From Collinsella sp. An7 (lineage in GTDB: Bacteria > Actinomycetota > Coriobacteriia > Coriobacteriales > Coriobacteriaceae): a stretch of DNA of 64,000 bases. This document shows, in pieces, positions 2,961 through 56,300 of the stretch. Within the stretch, counting starts at the first letter, position 1. Every line of letters begins with the position of its first letter. The position numbers were made by a program, and so were the translations under genes. The notes under the pieces are model-generated. The model did no database searches, had not been told where the DNA came from, and saw nothing but the letters and a program-made list of their open reading frames with translations. The DNA is taken from the NCBI RefSeq assembly GCF_002159335.1, contig NZ_NFHP01000001.1:124001-188000 (forward strand), given 5' to 3'.

Positions 2961-3028
2961 CGCGGGGTGGTTCGGCAACGTTGGGCCGGCGCGGGCCCCG
3001 CGTCGGCGCCGGAAGAGACCCCAAGCCA

Positions 3029-3168
3029 AGTTTGAGTCGCAAGTGCGACCCTCATTTTTGAAATGCCGAGTAGCCCGATGTTTTGGCTCCGTGCGACCTG
3101 CGCTTTTGTTGGAAAAACGGGGTGTGTACTCAGCAGTCTGCCAAGTTGGGTCACAATAGCGACTCGAA
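3029..3168. repeat. Long-armed palindromic element, copy 1
   Basis: Imperfect inverted arms at 3029-3051 and 3147-3168 share the GAGTCGC and GACCC blocks. The interior carries CCGAGTAG at 3066-3073, 14 bases inside the left arm, the box also seen in copies 2 and 6. It lies directly upstream of rdgB and is the most degraded of the nine copies. Confidence 0.5.
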
Positions 3169-3194
3169 CGTACATCAAAGGCGAGGAGGAACGC

Positions 3195-6176: not shown

Positions 6177-6291
6177 GCTATCTCGGCTGCGCGTGGCCGG
6201 CAGGTCGGGACGCTCTATGAGTGGCGATGTCCTCAAGAGCCGGTCCGTTTGGGCGTTATTATCGATAACCCCCTGAAAATAGGGGGTGATT

Positions 6292-6442
6292 ATAAAAACC
6301 TCGCGCCAATGTAAGGATGGAATCGGAGTTTCTGAAGTAGACCAGATTTGCCCAACTCGTTTACCTGCGGGTTTGTTTCTGTGTTTTGCCTCTCTACTCG
6401 GCAAGGGACAATTCCATCCTTACATTGGCGCGAAGTTTTTAT
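6292..6442. repeat. Long-armed palindromic element, copy 2
   Basis: Arms of 32 bases at 6292-6323 and 6411-6442 are complementary with a single mismatch. Similarity continues weakly outwards into GGGGGT / ACCCCC. On the minus strand the interior reads CCGAGTAG, 17 bases, ACAAACCCGCAGG, 22 bases, TCTACT. Exactly the same blocks and spacings occur in copy 6 at 34021-34167. No open frame of note. The element sits between the tRNA terminator and the recombinase remnant. Confidence 0.8.
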
Positions 6443-6571
6443 TCTGACCCCCTGTTGATGCCCAAAGCTGGCCGTCGCCGTCACTTCAAGCACGGGCAAA
6501 GCCTCCTTGGCGGGACTTCCGGGCATGCTGCAAGCGTTGGATTGCGACAGCATGCAGGTAAGGGAGGACCC

Positions 6572-7095
6572 ATGGCAACATACGGCTACGCGCGCGTCTC
6601 GACCAAAGACCAAAACGTCAACCGTCAGCTCGATGCGCTGGAGCGGTTTCCGCTCGAGCGGTCGAGCATCTACATCGACTACTACACGGGTGCGGATTTT
6701 GAGCGTCCTGAGTATCAGCGGCTCGTGCGACGTCTCGAGCAGGGGGATGTGCTGGTGGTAAAGAGCATCGACCGCCTCGGCCGCAACTACAGCGAGATCC
6801 TGGCACAGTGGGACCGCCTCACGCGCTCGCAGGGCGTGCAGGTGGTGGTGCCCGATATGCCCCTGCTCGACACGCGCCAGACCGCGCGCGACCTCACCGG
6901 CACGTTCATCGCCGATGTGGTGCTGCAGCTGTTGAGCTACGTCGCGCAGGTTGAGCGCGAGAACATCCGTCAGCGTCAGGCGGAGGGCATCGCGGCGGCC
7001 AAGGCGCGCGGCGTGCGCTTCGGCCGGCCGGAGAAGGCACGGCCGCAGGAATACGCCGATGTTCGGAACCTTGTGGCGATGGGCGAGCTTTCTAA
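6572..7095 (+). pseudogene. Serine recombinase (resolvase/invertase family), C-terminally truncated
   Basis: The first 173 or so residues are a normal small serine recombinase. The nucleophile serine is S10 in YARVSTKDQN, followed by DRLGRNYSEI, an LSYVAQVERENIRQRQ helix and FGRPEK at the start of the DNA-binding arm. After residue ~173 (VAMGEL) similarity ends: the HTH of about 25 residues is missing and the frame runs into sequence that, in another frame, encodes a surface protein, stopping at 7282. The ATG at 6572 follows AGGGAGG at 6561-6567. The protein probably cannot bind its site. The junction lies at about 7088-7098. Confidence 0.8.
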
Positions 7096-8217
7096 AAGAC
7101 GAAGAAAATCTATCAGCAATTTGCAACTAGTCCCGACTTTGCACTTTATGAGTCGGCAACGGGCTACGCTGAGCTTGTTAAGCAGTTCGACAATAGCTTT
7201 GCTTTTGCAGCGCCTGAGGCCAAATCCGACGGTAGCGATAACACCTCAAACTGGGATTGGTATCCCTGGGGTAAAGATTTGATGCTGTATCTCGCCGGCC
7301 TTAGCACCAACGGTTCAGATAAGGCTGAGATTTCCAATGCCGATGCGGCTGAAGTGTTTAGCAGCATCGAGAACGTTATTCGCTACGAGTTCCAGTCCGG
7401 AACTGTGACCGATGTGATCGGCAGCGACTTTGACCTGACCGATGGCGGGAACATCACGGCCGACACATTTACGCTGACGGTTGGCGGGCAGGAGTATGCC
7501 GGTACCGTCGATGCCGAGAACCCCAACAAGGTGTACTTCGATAGCGGTGCCTATTCCGTGGAGTACCAGGTCTCGGGCGATACCGAGACGCTCGTCTGGT
7601 CCATCAACAGGCCGGTCGAGTCCGCGGCGGGCGTGACGCTCTCCTACAACCTCACGCTTGTGAACAAGTCGACCGAGCCGGGCGACCACACCGCCAAGAT
7701 CAACGAGAAGGCCACGGTCACCTACAAGCCCACGACGGGCGGGGACGTGACCGAGACCTTCCCGGTGCCTCAGGTGACCTATAACGTGCCCGAGCCCACG
7801 CCCGAGCCTGCACAGGATGCTCTCCGCTTTGAGCCCAACGCCGAGGGCGCGACGGGTGCAACGCCGTCTGTCACGGACGACGAGTACGCCACGGTGACCG
7901 TCTCCGAGAACGGCTTTGCGCTCGACGGTTATGAGTTCGCGGGTTGGAACACCGCCGCCGACGGCTCAGGCACCGCGTATGCCCCGGGCGACCCCTACAC
8001 CCTCACCGACGCCGATGACGTGCTCTACGCCCAGTGGAAGAAGGTCGAGGAGCCGACCAAGCCCGTCGAGGAGAAGCCGGCGGACACGACCGAGCAGAAG
8101 GATGGCGACTCCACCCTGCCGAGCACGGGCGATATCGCCGGCATGACGGCGGGCGCCGTGGCGTTTGCGGGCGCTGCTGCCGCCGGTATCGGCGCGACCC
8201 TCAAGCGCCGCCGCTAG
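7096..8217 (+). pseudogene. LPXTG cell-wall-anchored surface protein, 5' part missing
   Basis: An open frame starting behind TAA at 7093-7095 encodes about 373 residues without a signal peptide. The first part (YQQFATSPDF, then WDWYPWGKDLM) looks like the end of a VWA-type domain. Beta-rich repeats follow, then a Listeria-Bacteroides type repeat (FAGWNTAADGSGTAYAPGD). A Pro/Glu linker leads to the sortase signal LPSTG at 8116, a hydrophobic helix and KRRR. TTG 7279 or ATG 7282 could start translation, but without an export signal the product would not be anchored. The 5' portion was evidently lost in the event that fused it to the recombinase. Confidence 0.78.
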
Positions 8218-8608: not shown

Positions 8609-8813
8609 GGACGATTGCCTCTTGGTCTTGGGCACGGCCTCGGCGTCGGCTCTCGATGGGGCTATTTTGCGGCGGGCGAATTGGGTGCTAAAGGGTTACG
8701 CGTAGTTGCGCTTGTATGTTCACCTATCCGCCGCATGCGGCTGGGGCGCGCCCAGCAGACGAAGAGCTTGTCGGATTCGTTCACGCTCGATACCCGCATC
8801 GTCCGTGCATTAT

Positions 8814-8952
8814 TGCGTGCAATGAACCCGATAATGCGTAATTCGGGTTCCCTGCAAGCGTCGGGTTCACAACGTGGCTTAACGTACGCCCCGTTACCTG
8901 CCCTTTTGTCGAGGGTGCACAAATGGGTTCATTACCGGGTTCATTGCACGCA
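8814..8952. repeat. Long-armed palindromic element, copy 3
   Basis: Arms at 8814-8836 and 8930-8952 match in 22 of 23 positions (TGCGTGCAATGAACCCG type). The interior shares TGCGTAA, TCGGGTTCACA, CTTTTG and GAGGGT blocks in the same order with copy 9 near 55.9 kb. It represents a second arm subfamily. Confidence 0.75.
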
Positions 8953-8978
8953 AAAACGCACGGGGGTGGCGGCCGCAC

Positions 8979-12421: not shown

Positions 12422-12586
12422 GCGCCGAAATTGTGTATAGCGAAACATTGTGTATACCGAAACTGAAGCACACGTCGAAGGTCGTTATACATTTCTGCAG
12501 GTCACTGGCCCAAGGCGCCTTTTACATACACTTCGCAGCAAAGTTTCAGTACACACAATTTATTTCGCTATACACAATCTCGCGCC
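12422..12586. repeat. Long-armed palindromic element, copy 4
   Basis: The longest arms of the set: 12422-12469 and 12535-12586, about 50 bases with a few mismatches and small gaps. They are built around ATTGTGTATAGCGAAA and TGTGTA(T/C)ACCGAAACT. The loop of about 65 bases has no obvious gene. The AT-rich arms contrast with the local GC level. Confidence 0.72.
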
Positions 12587-16743: not shown

Positions 16744-16848
16744 GCAAAAGGACGGGTGCCGGCTGCGCGCCGGGTGTGCGGAAAGAAGGAGTAAGACACA
16801 CCCGGGTACGAGCCGGCACCGACGTTCCAGCGGTTTTGCTGCTGTCGT

Positions 16849-16997
16849 GGTCAAATTCCGGAGAAATCAGCGATTGGACGTCCGAGCAACCGTTGAATTC
16901 TCGAGAATTTGGCCAGCTTGACAAGAAAACCGCAGGAAAGCCTGAACGCTCAAAGCCGTGCAACGGAGGCAATCGCTGATTTCTCCGGATTTTGTCC
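16849..16997. repeat. Long-armed palindromic element, copy 5
   Basis: Arms 16849-16876 and 16970-16996 match in 26 of 28 positions (core TCCGGAGAAATCAGCGATTG). The interior has CCGAG at 16882-16886 and ACAAGAAAACCGCAGG at 16921-16936, variants of the boxes in copies 2 and 6. The right arm ends about 30 bases before a truncated GntR gene. Confidence 0.78.
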
Positions 16998-17027
16998 AGC
17001 GGAGGGCAAAACGCGCCGCTCCCACCG

Positions 17028-18279: not shown

Positions 18280-18333
18280 CGGCCTAGCTTGCTTCGCCGT
18301 GACCGACTCCTCCTACTAGAAGGAACGAGACAT

Positions 18334-18407
18334 GGGTCAGTTGGGGACGTGTTCCATCTGCCCCATTTTCAAAAATGGGGCAGATGGAACACGTCCCCAA
18401 CTGACCC
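18334..18407. repeat. GGGGACG-type short palindrome, full copy
   Basis: Perfect 36-base arms around a two-base loop: GGGTCAGTTGGGGACGTG..., through CCCCATTTT, then the mirror image. It lies 54 bases after the manA stop and 13 bases from the 3' end of the convergent EamA gene, so it could terminate both. Confidence 0.85.
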
Positions 18408-18420
18408 AATCAGAGTCTTC

Positions 18421-28900: not shown

Positions 28901-30852
28901 GCTACCCCTACGTGCTCAAGAACTCCGATGACCCTGAGCGCCGCTTTGGCATTCCCTTTGATGCGCCGCTCTTCCACTGGTACACCGTGCGCGACCGCGA
29001 TCGCCAGCTCGGCGCGTACCTGAGCGAGACCTACGGTGTTACGACCGAGCAGGCGGCGGACGCCATCCGCCAGGCTGACGAGGCGCAGCGCGCCTTTACC
29101 GAGGCGCTCACCCACCGCGGCGAGGAGGTGCTCGCCGAGGTGCGCCGCCGCGGGAGCTACGCCGTCGTCATCGCGTCGCGGCCCTACCACAACGATCCGC
29201 TCGTCAACCACGGTGTTCCCAAGCTCTTCTCGAGCCAGGGCATCGCCGTGCTCACGCCCGATGCCCTGCCCGGCGTGCGCGAGCAGGACCTCTCCCGGAG
29301 CCGGCTCGACATCGTCAACAACTTCCACGCGCGCATGCTCTCCGCCGCGCTCATCACCGCAGCCACGCCCGAGCTGGAGTACGTGCAGCTCGTGAGCTTT
29401 GGCTGCGGGCACGACGCCTACCTCTCGGACGAGATTTCTCGCATGCTCCGCGAGACGAGCAACAAGGCGCCGCTCATCTTAAAGATCGATGAGTCCGATG
29501 CCACCGGTCCGCTCAAGATTCGCGTGCGCTCGTTTATCGAGACCACCGAGCGTCGGCGCCGCGCCGAGGCAGGCCGCCCCGCAGCGGCTCTCGGCCCGCG
29601 CCCGCTGCCCGACCCCTACGAGGTCAAGTACACGCGCGAGATGCGCCGGACCAAGGTGGTGCTCGTGCCCAACACGAGCCATGCGTTCTGCCGGCTCATG
29701 ACGGCGGCGCTCCGTCGCGAGGGCGTGCGGACCGAGCCCCTGCCCGTGGGGCACGAGGAGGCCATCCGCCTCGGCAAGCGCTACGTGCACAACGATATCT
29801 GCTTCCCCGCGCAGATTACCATCGGCGAGTCGCTCGAGGCGCTCACGAGCGGGCGCTACAATCCCGACGAGGTGGCCATCATCACGGGCAAGTACATCGG
29901 CGATTGCCGCCTTACGCACTACCTGCCGCTCTTGCGCAAGGCGCTCGACGACGCGGGCTTTCCGCAGGTGCCGGTCCTCGACAACGACGACGTGGACGCG
30001 CGCGGCGTGCACCCGGGCTTTACGCTCTCGCTTGCCGCGAGCATGGAGATCGCCTGGGGTCTGCCCATGATCGACGCGCTCGAGGCGCTGCTGCGGCGCA
30101 TCCGCCCTTACGAGCTCACACCCGGCTCGGCCGATCAGGCCTTTGAGCAGGCGCTCGACGAGGTGATGCACGGGATCGAGACACACGGCCTGCGCGGTGC
30201 CGAGGAGGGCTTCCGCCGGGCGATCAAGATCATGGGCGAGGTGCCCTACGACCGCTCACATCCGCGGCCGACGGTGCTCATTGTGGGCGAGTACCTGCTG
30301 AACTTTCACCCCGGCGCCAACCACGAAATCGAGCGCTACCTCGAGGCCAACGGCTTGGAGGTCATCGAGGCGCGCATGACCGACGTCATTCGCAAAAGCT
30401 ACTTCTACAAGCATGCCCAGGTGCGCGAGTACCACGTGGACCTGCCCCTCACCGAGCGCGTATGGTACGCCACGGTCGACCGGCTCTTTGACATCGCGCA
30501 CGACCGCTGCGACCGTATCGCCCACGCGCACCCGCTCTATGAGCCGCCCACGCGCATGCCCGAGCTCGTTAAGGCCTCGGACGACGTGCTCCACCACACC
30601 TTTGACGCGGGCGAGGGCGTGCTCATCCCCGCGGAGATTCTGGAGCACGCGGCGCGCGGCTGCCGGGCGTTTGTGATCTTGCAGCCCTTTGGTTGCCTGC
30701 CCAACCACGTGGTGGGCCGCGGCCTGGTGCGCGCGCTCAAGGAGCGCTACCCCGATGCGCAGATCCTGCCGCTCGACTACGATCCAGATGTGAGCTTTGC
30801 GAACGTGGAGAACCGCCTGCAGATGCTCATCATGAACACACGCCGCTCGTGA
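25969..30852 (+). CDS. Acyl-CoA dehydratase activase-related fusion protein (two BcrA/BadF ATPase domains plus DUF2229)
   Basis: A 1627-residue protein of the 2-hydroxyacyl-CoA dehydratase activator type. Domain 1 (~30-295) is an ASKHA ATPase: GLDIGSTTTKVVVLD, GGQDAKM, and CAGGTGAF with a possible cluster cysteine. Domain 2 (~420-700) repeats it: GIDSGSTTTKF, DIGGQDMK, NEACSAGCGSF. A CRRCGNRC...NRCPRG cysteine segment follows near 720. After an Ala/Pro linker, a DUF2229/HgdB-like part begins (PFWSTLFRSLGF, TVCFPAKLVHGH). Activators pass electrons to dehydratases at ATP cost, but no dehydratase is nearby, so its partner is unknown. The start chosen is ATG 25969. Confidence 0.85.
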   Translation: MAEKNVPLRDERSDLEGASAHPEATGSTEPTEPASAPVPRAIRVGLDIGSTTTKVVVLDADTHEVLYWRYKRHGARQAASAAEALEEVQRRFPGVPARVAVTGSGARDIARALGADYVQEVVANAIAICELYPQVRCAVELGGQDAKMLFFHAEGPDAEPQVSDMRMNGSCAGGTGAFIDEMAKLLGVSPEGFEELAAAGTRVYEVSGRCGVYAKTDIQPLLNQGVSRADLALSALHAVARQTIGGLAQGIDIEAPVIFEGGTLAYHPTLVRVFTEQLELAPGEVVVPADPQVIIARGAALSLDRLFAEHAGEGAEGAGQAAGDAAGAQAGGGVRAEGEQSAPATPAASPDDAPEQSAAHAAAIDLAAGIAALRDLAEHPVDDGSPAVQPFFASEEERADFARRHPAEVPAPGPAAFSRGDTVHAILGIDSGSTTTKFALINAAGELLDSFYASNEGKPLDVARAGLMDLKCRWDEAGVALVIDAVGTTGYGEQLFARAFHADYHTVETVAHARAAAMCVPDATFVLDIGGQDMKAIWLDHGVLTDIVVNEACSAGCGSFLEGFAANLGVAVEDIASAAFRSTDPAALGSRCTVFMNSSVVSEQRRGKGPDDIMAGLCRSIIENVFTKVIRVANLDALGERIVVQGGTFRNDAVLRAFEQFLGRSVTRAPHPGLMGAIGVALLAQEHAEESEERRGAEGASSFIGLDALEGFAHTEYAGVTCRRCGNRCARSVVAFSDGALYVTGNRCPRGEEISWMELIREVPEAAADAPAGALVGEGEGTAGAGPAADAPVAAGSDAAGAAAPELATSGGEARPAASVRPSPSARTASARADGASAAPTGPAVEERRPEPSANLFDERERLLFKNWPCEPVAPARGETVGIPRVLEFWDQMPFWSTLFRSLGFTVRISRPSTRRTFERGLAHVTSDTVCFPAKLVHGHIRDLADAHVDRIFMPIITTVPTENTAKTSEWMCAVVKGYPYVLKNSDDPERRFGIPFDAPLFHWYTVRDRDRQLGAYLSETYGVTTEQAADAIRQADEAQRAFTEALTHRGEEVLAEVRRRGSYAVVIASRPYHNDPLVNHGVPKLFSSQGIAVLTPDALPGVREQDLSRSRLDIVNNFHARMLSAALITAATPELEYVQLVSFGCGHDAYLSDEISRMLRETSNKAPLILKIDESDATGPLKIRVRSFIETTERRRRAEAGRPAAALGPRPLPDPYEVKYTREMRRTKVVLVPNTSHAFCRLMTAALRREGVRTEPLPVGHEEAIRLGKRYVHNDICFPAQITIGESLEALTSGRYNPDEVAIITGKYIGDCRLTHYLPLLRKALDDAGFPQVPVLDNDDVDARGVHPGFTLSLAASMEIAWGLPMIDALEALLRRIRPYELTPGSADQAFEQALDEVMHGIETHGLRGAEEGFRRAIKIMGEVPYDRSHPRPTVLIVGEYLLNFHPGANHEIERYLEANGLEVIEARMTDVIRKSYFYKHAQVREYHVDLPLTERVWYATVDRLFDIAHDRCDRIAHAHPLYEPPTRMPELVKASDDVLHHTFDAGEGVLIPAEILEHAARGCRAFVILQPFGCLPNHVVGRGLVRALKERYPDAQILPLDYDPDVSFANVENRLQMLIMNTRRS

Positions 30853-30950
30853 GAATATGGGGACGGGTGCGTTTTTCTCACTTTTGGGAATATGGCACCC
30901 GTCCCCATTTTCCCAAAAGTGAGAAAAACGCACCCGTCCCCATATTCTCA
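30850..30950. repeat. GGGGACG-type long palindrome overlapping a stop codon
   Basis: Arms of 41 bases (30850-30890 and 30910-30950), perfectly complementary, starting TGAGAATATGGGGACGGG. The loop of about 19 bases itself contains another GCACCCGTCCCC copy. Its first three bases are the TGA stop codon of the activase gene. Confidence 0.85.
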
Positions 30951-30973
30951 CGGCTCCAACCTCGGGGTTTGTG

Positions 30974-34020: not shown

Positions 34021-34167
34021 GCAAAAGTACCGATTGCCCGTATCAAATTCGCGACTGCCCGAGTAGCAAGGGGTTATCCAATAACAAACCCGCAGGATTC
34101 TGAAGTCCAAAACGGGCGTCTACTCGGCCTTCCGCAGATGTGATACGGACAATCGGTTGTTTTTTGC
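34021..34167. repeat. Long-armed palindromic element, copy 6
   Basis: Arms 34021-34045 and 34141-34167 pair apart from a small indel and two mismatches (ACCGATTG, CCGTATCA). Interior boxes: CCGAGTAG 34059-34066, ACAAACCCGCAGG 34084-34096, TCTACT 34119-34124. Spacers of 17 and 22 bases are identical to those in copy 2, while the arms are unrelated to copy 2. It lies between clpC and disA. Confidence 0.82.
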
Positions 34168-34385
34168 AGGGCCCTGTACGCCCCGCCGACGATGCGCTGT
34201 GCCCGCCGAAATGGGCCAGCCCTTCACCTCGTCGCACCGTCGCCCCCGTGGGGGCGTTTTGTCAAAAGTGGACGCGCGCGCCGGATGAGGGCAGATTCGT
34301 GCGAAAATGAACCCGACTGTGACAAAGCGAGCTAAGCGCCGACGGTTGCCGCCCGGCGTGCTGACGTGTGAGATGGAGGAGCGCA

Positions 34386-36381: not shown

Positions 36382-36536
36382 AAACTTGACCCTTACGTGA
36401 GAGCCTCTTTTGGAGTCCGTTGAGTACGCTGCATCATGCTGAAGTGCTCAACTGGGCTTTTGCTGAGGTTTTAGGGCTGATTATGGCGGTCCACTTGCCG
36501 TTCCCCGAAAAGAGGCTCTCACTTAGGGGTCGAGTT
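36382..36536. repeat. Long-armed palindromic element, copy 7
   Basis: Arms 36382-36411 and 36507-36536 (GTGAGAGCCTCTTTT and complement). The interior TGAGTACGCT ... CTCAACTGGGCTTTTG is shared with copy 8. The arms differ from copy 8 at paired positions so that complementarity is kept. It lies between ispD and the convergent ispF. Confidence 0.82.
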
Positions 36537-36648
36537 TTCGCACGGGACGCTAAAGCCGATAATCAGCGCTTCCGAGGCTCCGCTCGGCCGAGTCAACGCG
36601 TCTAGCGTACGGCTCGTCCGGCGTTCTGTGCCAGGTTCCGCCCTGCTT

Positions 36649-37128
36649 CTACGCTCGCTCGAGCAGGCAGACGGCCCAGGCGCCGATGCCCCGGCCCTCG
36701 CCTTCCCAGCCGAGGCGCTCGGTCGTGGTGGCCTTAACGCCCACCTGCTCCACCGAGACGCCGAGCGCACGGCTCAGGTTCTCGCGCATCTGTTCGCGGT
36801 GCGGACCGAGCTTGGGCTCCTGTGCGGCCACGGTGCAGTCGGCGTCTACCAGCTCAAAGCCGCGCTCGCGGGCGTAGGCCATCACGCGGCCGAGCAACAC
36901 GAGCGAGTCGGCGTCTTCGTAGGCGGGGTCGTCGTCGGGGAAGAGCTTGCCGATATCCCCGCCGCGGCAGGCCCCGAGGATGGCGTCGGCCAGCGCGTGG
37001 GCGAGCACGTCGGCGTCGGAATGGCCGAGAAGCCCCTTGGTGTGCGGAATGTCCACGCCGCCGATGATGCAGCGCCGCCCCTCCACGAGCCGGTGAACGT
37101 CGTACCCATGACCGATATGCAGCGACAT
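36649..37128 (-). CDS. ispF: 2-C-methyl-D-erythritol 2,4-cyclodiphosphate synthase
   Basis: Cyclises CDP-methylerythritol phosphate in the MEP pathway. 159 residues, normal length. The metal-binding GHGYDVHRL is at 6-14, GVDIPHTKGLLGHSDADVLAHAL at ~24-46 and KATTTERLGWEGEG near the C-terminus. It is encoded on the strand opposite ispD, although the two are usually cotranscribed or fused. Confidence 0.95.
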   Translation of the reverse strand: MSLHIGHGYDVHRLVEGRRCIIGGVDIPHTKGLLGHSDADVLAHALADAILGACRGGDIGKLFPDDDPAYEDADSLVLLGRVMAYARERGFELVDADCTVAAQEPKLGPHREQMRENLSRALGVSVEQVGVKATTTERLGWEGEGRGIGAWAVCLLERA

Positions 37129-37236
37129 CGCGTTCCCTTTCTCTTTGACTGTCTGGCCGTGTTTCCACTCCATTGTGCCAGATGTTACGTTTTGCCCTGC
37201 GCCGATAAAACGCTCGCCAGATGCGTGCGGCAGGGC

Positions 37237-37242
37237 TATCAT
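37237..37242 (+). promoter_or_regulatory. Candidate -10 box of the thiamine operon
   Basis: TATCAT 13 bases upstream of the TPP aptamer, a sensible place for transcription to start. No good -35 box. Confidence 0.35.
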
Positions 37243-41090: not shown

Positions 41091-41097
41091 TAGCGAA

Positions 41098-41173
41098 TGG
41101 GTCATTTGGGGACGTGTTCCGTCTGCCCCATTTTCAAAAATGGGGCAGACGGAACACGTCCCCAAATGACCCA
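41098..41173. repeat. GGGGACG-type short palindrome, full copy
   Basis: About 37-base arms, TGGGTCATTTGGGGACGTG ... CCCCATTTT and mirror. It begins 7 bases after the cysS stop and ends 3 bases before the 3' end of the convergent carbonic anhydrase gene. Compared with 18334-18407 the arms differ at several positions, each time on both sides. Confidence 0.88.
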
Positions 41174-41176
41174 CTC

Positions 41177-43029: not shown

Positions 43030-43106
43030 ATGGGTCAGTTGGGGACGTGTTCCGTCTGCCCCATTTTCAAAAATGGGGCAGACGGAACACGTCCCCAGCT
43101 GACCCA
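43030..43106. repeat. GGGGACG-type short palindrome, full copy
   Basis: Same layout as 41098-41173 but with TCAGTTGGGG / CCCCAGCTGA at the outer arms, leaving one mismatch. It is the only full copy not close behind a stop codon: it lies about 96 bases upstream of a minus-strand gene start. The rest of 43107-43486 is non-coding GC-rich DNA with nothing recognisable. Confidence 0.8.
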
Positions 43107-45055: not shown

Positions 45056-45087
45056 CGTCGGCGCGCGTTTTTGCGGGCGCGGAACAT

Positions 45088-45237
45088 CTCGACCCTTGAT
45101 GTGAGTGCATCTTTTGGGATCGGCGAGTAGCACTGTAGTACGCTAAAGCACTCAACTGGGCTTTTGAAGGCGGAATAGACCGAATATGGGTGGTCTATTC
45201 CGCCTTTTCTAAAGATGCACTCACATCGGGGGTCGAG
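45088..45237. repeat. Long-armed palindromic element, copy 8
   Basis: Arms 45088-45114 and 45211-45237 match in 25 of 27 positions. CGAGTAG at 45124-45130 and GTACGCT ... CTCAACTGGGCTTTTG are shared boxes. A second, perfect 15-bp hairpin (AAGGCGGAATAGACC and complement, 45167-45206) is nested at the right side. It lies just after the GH13 gene. Confidence 0.85.
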
Positions 45238-45415
45238 TTTTTTCGGCCGCAGATTTCGCCCCGGGAAATACCGATTTAAGACCGTTGCGCCCGGGGAGGT
45301 GGCGGCGCGGCGGATTGGCCTGAGGGCGGGAATCGGTGGCGCTGCGCCGATGCGGCCGGAGGCCTGAGACTCCGGCCGTGGTAGGTTGGAGCGCGGGGAG
45401 AATCGGTCTGTTTCT

Positions 45416-55716: not shown

Positions 55717-55879
55717 GGGAACCTCCTTTGCTCCATTGTCCTCCTTTTGGCGCGGAGTCGGGCGATGGGCGCGTCCACGGCAGCCGACGGCGGCCCCTGT
55801 CTCCCGGCCGGCCTCTTGTTTGGTGCCCATCCGCCCGCTCGCTATCCGTCCGGTCTCCCAGCCGCGGTACATTTCTTTG

Positions 55880-56012
55880 CGCGATGAACCCGGAAGTGCG
55901 TAAACCGCGGCGCTTTGACACTTCGGGTTCACAGCGTGTGGAGATGTGACGTTATCTACCAGGTCTTTTGGTGAGGGTTCACCAACGGGTTCATTGCCGG
56001 GTTCACAGCGCG
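55880..56012. repeat. Long-armed palindromic element, copy 9
   Basis: Arms 55880-55898 and 55992-56012 (GATGAACCCGG type) pair imperfectly. The interior blocks TGCGTAA, TTCGGGTTCACA, CTTTTG, GAGGGTTCAC and GGGTTCATT follow the order of copy 3. It lies in the 584-base gap between the methyltransferase gene and the UPF0210 gene; the rest of that gap shows nothing else. Confidence 0.7.
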
Positions 56013-56300
56013 TGGATTTGCACGGGGTGTAGCCTTTGCGTCGCGCCCCTGGCAACCTGACCTCGCGCCGCCCGTCCGGCAGTCCGGTGGCCGTTCGCCC
56101 ACCCGGCAGCCCGCTACGCCATGCGTCTGCCTGGCCGCCCGACACCCGCCTCGCAACCCGTGTGAAACGCGCGAGCACCCCACCCCCGGCACCGCGGCGC
56201 GGGCGCGACAGGCTACAATAGCCAACAAGCAACGGGCCGCCACGAGCCGGCCCACCGACGGGCTGCCCCGGGCCGCCCACCCCGAGCGTTAGGAGCGCGC

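Follow-up and report, generated by a model that had tools for sequence, protein, structure and literature searches.

Palindromic elements with a common core and family-specific arms in Coriobacteriia, and a Vsr/DUF559-like nuclease as their candidate partner

What kind of DNA element keeps one interior sequence between arms that are unrelated from copy to copy is the question raised by two palindromes, copies 2 and 6, in a 64-kb stretch of the genome of Collinsella sp. An7 (the whole stretch is referred to below as the window). An initial annotation had drawn attention to the string CCGAGTAG-N17-ACAAACCCGCAGG-N22-TCTACT inside both of them, and this string indeed occurs exactly twice in the 2.37-Mb genome. 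Copy 2 carries it on the minus strand at window positions 6336-6401, with 0 mismatches relative to copy 6, and the runner-up place in the window, with 8 mismatches, is copy 6 itself read on the opposite strand. Even with tolerance in the spacing, the exact-letter pattern was found at no third place in the An7 genome and was absent from 60 of 60 relatives. Searches for exact letters are too strict, and a profile of the core was used instead; in the window it matched three elements, copies 2 and 6 among them (Table 1). Some details of the annotation were corrected: in copy 6, TCTACT extends to TCTACTCGG, which is the inverted partner of CCGAGTAG, the consensus of the central box is AAAnCCGCAGGTAGA, and the arms of copies 2 and 6 recur elsewhere in the genome, i.e. 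they are not unique. Copies 2 and 6 exemplify, in its most literal form, a large family of core-bearing elements.

Table 1. Palindromic elements of the window and the parts of copy 6 (window positions).
Feature	Position	Strand	Remarks
Copy 6, whole palindromic element	34021-34172	+	Core 34047-34139, 48.4 bits; core orientation +
Copy 6 left arm, family E (GTACCGATTGCCCGTATCAAATTCG)	34027-34051	+	Second family copy at C1:90924-91058
Copy 6 core box L, CCGAGTAG	34059-34066	+	
Copy 6 core box C, ACAAACCCGCAGG	34084-34096	+	
Copy 6 core box R, TCTACTCGG, inverted partner of L	34119-34127 (TCTACT 34119-34124)	+	
Copy 6 right arm, left arm inverted	34138-34160	+	
Copy 2, arm family A (arm CTTCGCGCCAATGTAAGGATGGAAT)	6278-6456	-	Core 6320-6414, 60.8 bits; at least 13 family copies in the genome
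Third strong core element, arm family X (GTTCGAGTCGC..GTGACCC)	3022-3172	-	43.9 bits
Arm family G element (AATGAACCCGG)	8794-8972		Related arms flank nuclease gene C1:341041-341928
Palindromic element, arm family F (GATTGTGTATAGCGAAA)	12426-12585		
Arm family C element (GGTCAAAATCnGGAGAAATCAACGATT), degenerate core with AAAACCGCAGG	16848-16998	+	
Arm family D element (CTCGACCCnTAAGTGAGAGCCTCTTTT)	36382-36537	-	
Arm family B element (CTCGACCCCCGATGTGAGTGYATCTTTT)	45080-45245	-	
Family G element, diverged	55867-56027		

Several other features lie in the window. A resolvase-like serine recombinase (MATYGYARVSTKDQNVNRQL, 6573-7282), its family membership judged by eye, adjoins copy 2 and a tRNA gene, and a gene segment beside the family D element (36649-37242) has, in most congeners though not in relative G006, the opposite orientation to its neighbours. 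Short-loop hairpins with GGGGACGTGTTCC or GGGGACGGGTGCG (18333-18408, 41095-41176, 43031-43106 and 30848-30952) are separate repeats. GGGGAC hairpins similar to these border several of the long Y1/RAYT-like genes of relatives and resemble the GGGGWSAS TIRs of TIRYT loci (PMC3733652).

Empty sites in related strains had been suggested as a check, and for copy 6 the comparison yielded no clean one: the element is missing from the orthologous gap of four relatives (G003, G004, G005 and G006), where the An7 sequence differs by more than the element, so that the absence lies inside a larger length difference. The orthologous site of G001 holds a different palindrome, and no palindrome was found at that of G008. 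In G007, about 2.9 kb of extra sequence (C10:4348-7246, locus L188) lies between the same two genes.

Each element runs from an arm over a spacer (about 7-13 bp) to a core of 69 bp that holds three boxes, and from there over a spacer of equal length to the inverted arm. The boxes, L (GAGTAG), C (AAAnCCGCAGGTAGA) and R (CTACTC), are about 30 bp apart, L and R being inverted relative to each other. Twenty-seven cores from An7 and from other genera align almost gap-free over 97 nt, with GAGTAG, AAAnCCGCAGGTAGA and GGnCTACTCGG conserved at this distance, which supports the earlier suggestion that the boxes act as a single unit with fixed spacing. With the central box setting the orientation, a left gap of 17-19 and a right gap of 22 are found in at least nine elements, copy 2 included, which represent five arm families. 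The sequence-only core profile gave 31 matches in the An7 genome and, with the spacing unchanged, matches in 65 of the 67 genomes of the bacterial family (up to 51 in one genome); there was no match in the other two, G003 and G011. In an order-wide sample, 45 of 101 genomes had core matches, which outside families f1 and f5 were single and mostly near the threshold. The annotation had also considered that the two matching cores might reflect chance or one recent copy event, should further copies with this box spacing be lacking; such copies are found, by the profile rather than by exact letters.

These elements are palindromes of 120-180 bp, present by the dozens in Collinsella-family bacteria. 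Among the inverted repeats in 836 kb of the An7 genome, loops of 80-100 nt form a peak, with 21 repeats of score at least 18 against 0 in a mirror-image control. None of the 37 candidate places listed in this genome lies inside a predicted gene, as called by a simple codon-usage script rather than a full annotation. Their preferred places in this genome are 3' ends and convergent junctions: of the 37, 11 are convergent and 4 divergent, whereas among all 309 intergenic gaps longer than 150 bp the numbers are 47 and 62, respectively. At loci L061, L150, L154 and L147, elements lie close together in tandem, two at a time, their arms being alike or different. A role as an invertible promoter was considered and found no support; the single orthologous pair compared keeps its orientation.

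A scan with the core alone made no use of arm sequence; of its 93 distinct matches, 89 carry inverted arms of score at least 11. The median arm score is 23.2, whereas shuffled flanks reach at most 9.4 and mirror flanks at most 9.0. That one core is common to elements with unrelated yet complementary arms was borne out. The arms had further been described as freely varying; they are complementary, and unrelated between families, but inside a family they are strongly conserved, and they are linked with lineages and with a nuclease gene. At least ten arm families occur in An7, including A (at least 13 copies), B, C, D, G and H, and two copies of family E are known, copy 6 being one of them (Table 1). 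Arms of family A are 93% identical between copies, compared with 40% for the core sequence between the boxes; the corresponding values are 87% and 53% in G015, 93% and 81% in G009 (a recent burst), and 64% and 36% in G117, where subfamilies were mixed. Two arm classes were distinguished in G009 and four subfamilies in G117. In G015, the arm reads CCCCGTTTA-nnnnn-CGGTTTT, and the five variable bases usually agree between both arms of one element. Covariation of the arms within elements exceeds that expected when partners are shuffled (the observed value was reached by 35, 2, 0 and 0 of 2000 shuffles), although subfamily ancestry could also give it. Across genera, replacement affects the arms and spares the core. 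In G005, the orthologue of the An7 element at C12:206339 has decayed arms, and the nuclease gene carries a changed arm (GGTAAGGAATTC); both are consistent with turnover.

From the structure of the copies, the elements appear to be mobile. Homology between two G077 copies runs exactly from arm end to arm end with unrelated flanks, and identity outside the arms of dispersed copies is 26-37% in G117 and G015. One G077 copy sits in a 511-bp polymorphic segment with other repeats. No consistent target-site duplication was seen: the mean flanking direct repeat was 1.24, compared with 0.97 by chance (sd 0.13), and had no consistent length. In G009 (L117-L136), a longer, MITE-like unit encloses the element burst; as read by eye, it ends in GGAAAACGCTGA and is flanked by 4-bp repeats of YTAG-like sequence. 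These repeats belong to the outer composite unit and occur only there, and the composite suggests that a second mobile element carries the core element along.

When the genes neighbouring the elements were clustered, DUF559-like proteins alone stood out as neither orthologous nor common, and no other recurrent gene was found beyond apparent orthologues or common gene families. Proteins of this type are present in 66 of the 67 family genomes; G011 lacks both core and nuclease. An element lies within 650 bp of 38 of 56 distinct nuclease genes, and on both sides of 11, compared with 56 (14%, any side) and 2 (0.5%, both sides) of 393 An7 genes of at least 250 aa, for which slightly less strict criteria were used; the seed nucleases are not independent, since they were found through adjacency to elements. 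The non-seed nucleases came from protein similarity, and some loci across the two sets are close relatives. Among 15 loci from the protein search (Collinsella, Candidatus Coprousia, other Coriobacteriaceae and a Slackia-labelled bin), 13 have an element within 700 bp and seven of them are flanked on both sides, to be set against the same 56 and 2 of 393 An7 genes. The upstream and downstream arms of all 11 doubly flanked genes are alike (score 10-25.8), each pair scoring above the 95th percentile of between-loci comparisons (7.2; median 4).

The arms at nuclease genes are also those of dispersed elements in seven genomes (An7, G003, G009, G117, G034, G013 and G077). In An7, the nuclease gene C6:11027-12202 is flanked by family A arms and C1:341041-341928 by arms related to family G, with similar arms beside a G003 gene. 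The flank arms in G009 match dispersed class 2, and two nuclease genes of G117 match two dispersed arm subfamilies. For its at least ten arm families, An7 has three nuclease genes that were found, linked to A, to G and to nothing, respectively; no partner nuclease was identified in this genome for family E, that of copy 6, or for most of the other arm families. G003 has nucleases with flanking palindromes, yet no core recognizable by the profile. Eighteen of the 56 nucleases have no nearby element, many of these being shorter paralogues, and beyond close orthologues the similarity of nucleases did not predict that of arms (r = 0.035). Overall, several arm types recur on both sides of a nuclease gene, which points to an undescribed enzyme-and-repeat system.

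The nuclease has about 350-395 residues and a C-terminal Vsr/DUF559-like domain with invariant D300, E311, H318 and R330, residues of the kind also invariant in the nuclease domains of EDxHD homing endonucleases such as I-Bth0305I and of Vsr/DUF559 proteins (PF04480). DUF559 itself was detected above the Pfam cut-off in P0001 and below it in the other members tested. The structure was predicted with confidence (pLDDT 86.6, pTM 0.90). A fold search of this model against the PDB gave no match at E <=0.001, weak matches including 3hrl, a putative Neisseria endonuclease, and I-Bth0305I (Foldseek rank 17, E 1.2). By sequence profile, I-Bth0305I (3r3p) was the best solved relative (E 5.8e-4); it is described as dimerizing on a target of nearly 60 bp (PMC3943268), and a possible dimer on a long target would be a trait in common. 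Unlike EDxHD and Vsr proteins, the nuclease here is matched to a dispersed family of inverted repeats, which also flank its gene, and no sign of an intron or intein context was noticed in passing.

In the reading that we favour, with a probability of roughly 60%, copies 2 and 6 are members of a class of non-autonomous palindromic elements that is widespread in Coriobacteriia and is maintained by a cognate trans-acting nuclease. The core is common across genera, and the arms form lineage-specific families, some of which flank a nuclease gene, sometimes on both sides. The nuclease would act on the arms, and in trans on a whole arm family, as the cognate enzyme of that family. A nuclease that recognizes the arms, and perhaps the core, would explain why arms are conserved and paired, why the core is shared, why replacement of the arms follows lineages and why the gene has its own substrates at its sides. 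Its fast-evolving part may bind the arms and a conserved part the core; on the palindrome it would probably act as a dimer. It may cut DNA or hairpins, after which repair or replication would spread or maintain the elements, much as RAYT is thought to do for REPINs, and a change of nuclease specificity would let a new arm family grow while the old one decays. We would put at even odds the fuller proposal that each genome holds several Vsr-like nucleases, each disseminating and policing its own palindromes, with arms that mirror specificity and a core that serves as a common assembly site, i.e. a REPtron-like arrangement in which a restriction-type nuclease replaces the HUH transposase.

The nuclease and its flanking elements could instead form a selfish or defence locus, the elements being operators or protected sites and the dispersed copies regulatory or decoy. 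The upstream elements, where present, do lie mostly 50-320 bp before the nuclease start, but PADLOC returned no match, the preference for 3' ends and convergent junctions is not one for promoters, and a fixed core common to unrelated arm families would be unexpected of an operator. This alternative is considered unlikely.

About equally unlikely is a REPIN/RAYT-type system or an ordinary MITE, moved by a HUH (Y1) RAYT or a known IS transposase, with the nuclease linkage incidental. Y1_Tnp proteins are present in 55 of the 67 family genomes, and a subset of the G009 elements lies inside the longer unit with GGAAAACGCTGA ends. However, none of 20 long Y1/RAYT loci has a core match, nor was one found in the 60 kb around the Y1 locus of An7; several such loci carry GGGGAC hairpins in place of core elements, and genomes without a Y1 match are still element-rich (e.g. 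G072, with 41 cores). Strong arm matches in the 836 kb searched occur almost only as pairs 120-240 bp apart and never as ends of a transposase unit, and no transposase-bearing autonomous relative that shares these ends was seen there or, for family A, genome-wide. A RAYT/Y1 transposase was rejected as the partner, the linkage being absent at the loci examined. MITEs and Correia/NEMIS-type elements are, as here, dispersed intergenic sequences of 120-180 bp with terminal inverted repeats. Unlike MITEs, the present elements combine many unrelated arm families with a single core; no consistent target-site duplication was seen, and no autonomous IS with these ends was found for the arms searched. 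In integron attC sites, as here, variable but complementary arms go with conserved boxes, whereas the boxes here lie inside the arms and the arm sequence is conserved within families.

The likeness to REPINs and REPtrons with their RAYT (TnpA-REP), and to TIRYT and TIRtrons, is nevertheless considerable: inverted conserved arms enclose a variable middle, the elements are intergenic, often between convergent genes, with several families per genome, and a chromosomal enzyme gene is flanked by the same repeats (PMC3116915, PMC3733652). The REPIN doublet, two inverted repeats in extragenic space, is found here, whereas the other hallmark, a RAYT (Y1/HUH) gene with these repeats on its flanks, was not seen at the loci examined. 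In contrast to REPIN-RAYT systems, the enzyme here is a Vsr/DUF559-like nuclease and not a HUH tyrosine transposase, and the middle is a conserved, fixed-length, three-box core across many arm families. REP arms are short palindromes (20-40 bp) with an unpaired GTAG or CGTC foot; on reading, the arms here, e.g. CTAAGTGAGCGGGCAAA, have neither.

A homing-like system, in which the nuclease cuts element-free sites and repair copies the element in, would suit the relationship to I-Bth0305I, an EDxHD homing endonuclease and the closest solved relative by profile; homing requires flank homology, however, and the unrelated flanks of the dispersed copies in G117 and G015 make it very doubtful. Finally, a structured RNA or a bidirectional terminator with a covarying stem is highly improbable, and the RNA role raised in the initial annotation found no support: the two arms of an element are complementary and covary, and many elements lie at 3' ends, but the core has no conserved pairs and no Rfam match, arm mismatches (60 GT/TG against 77 AC/CA) show no G-U bias, arm sequence is conserved within families as pairing alone would not require, and subfamily structure also accounts for the covariation.

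The annotation had stated that no element of this design was described; none was found in the literature open to search, and the pairing of element and nuclease is new against that literature only, subscription literature being outside its scope. To our knowledge, the principal example of a bacterial enzyme that has palindromes of its own is that of REPINs and RAYTs. If the nuclease reading is true, common gut bacteria would hold a second, unrelated solution, and the arrangement of enzyme and palindromes would be a general one. It would also give a candidate role to the DUF559-type nuclease family, and would provide natural matched pairs of nuclease and target whose specificity has shifted repeatedly around a constant core.
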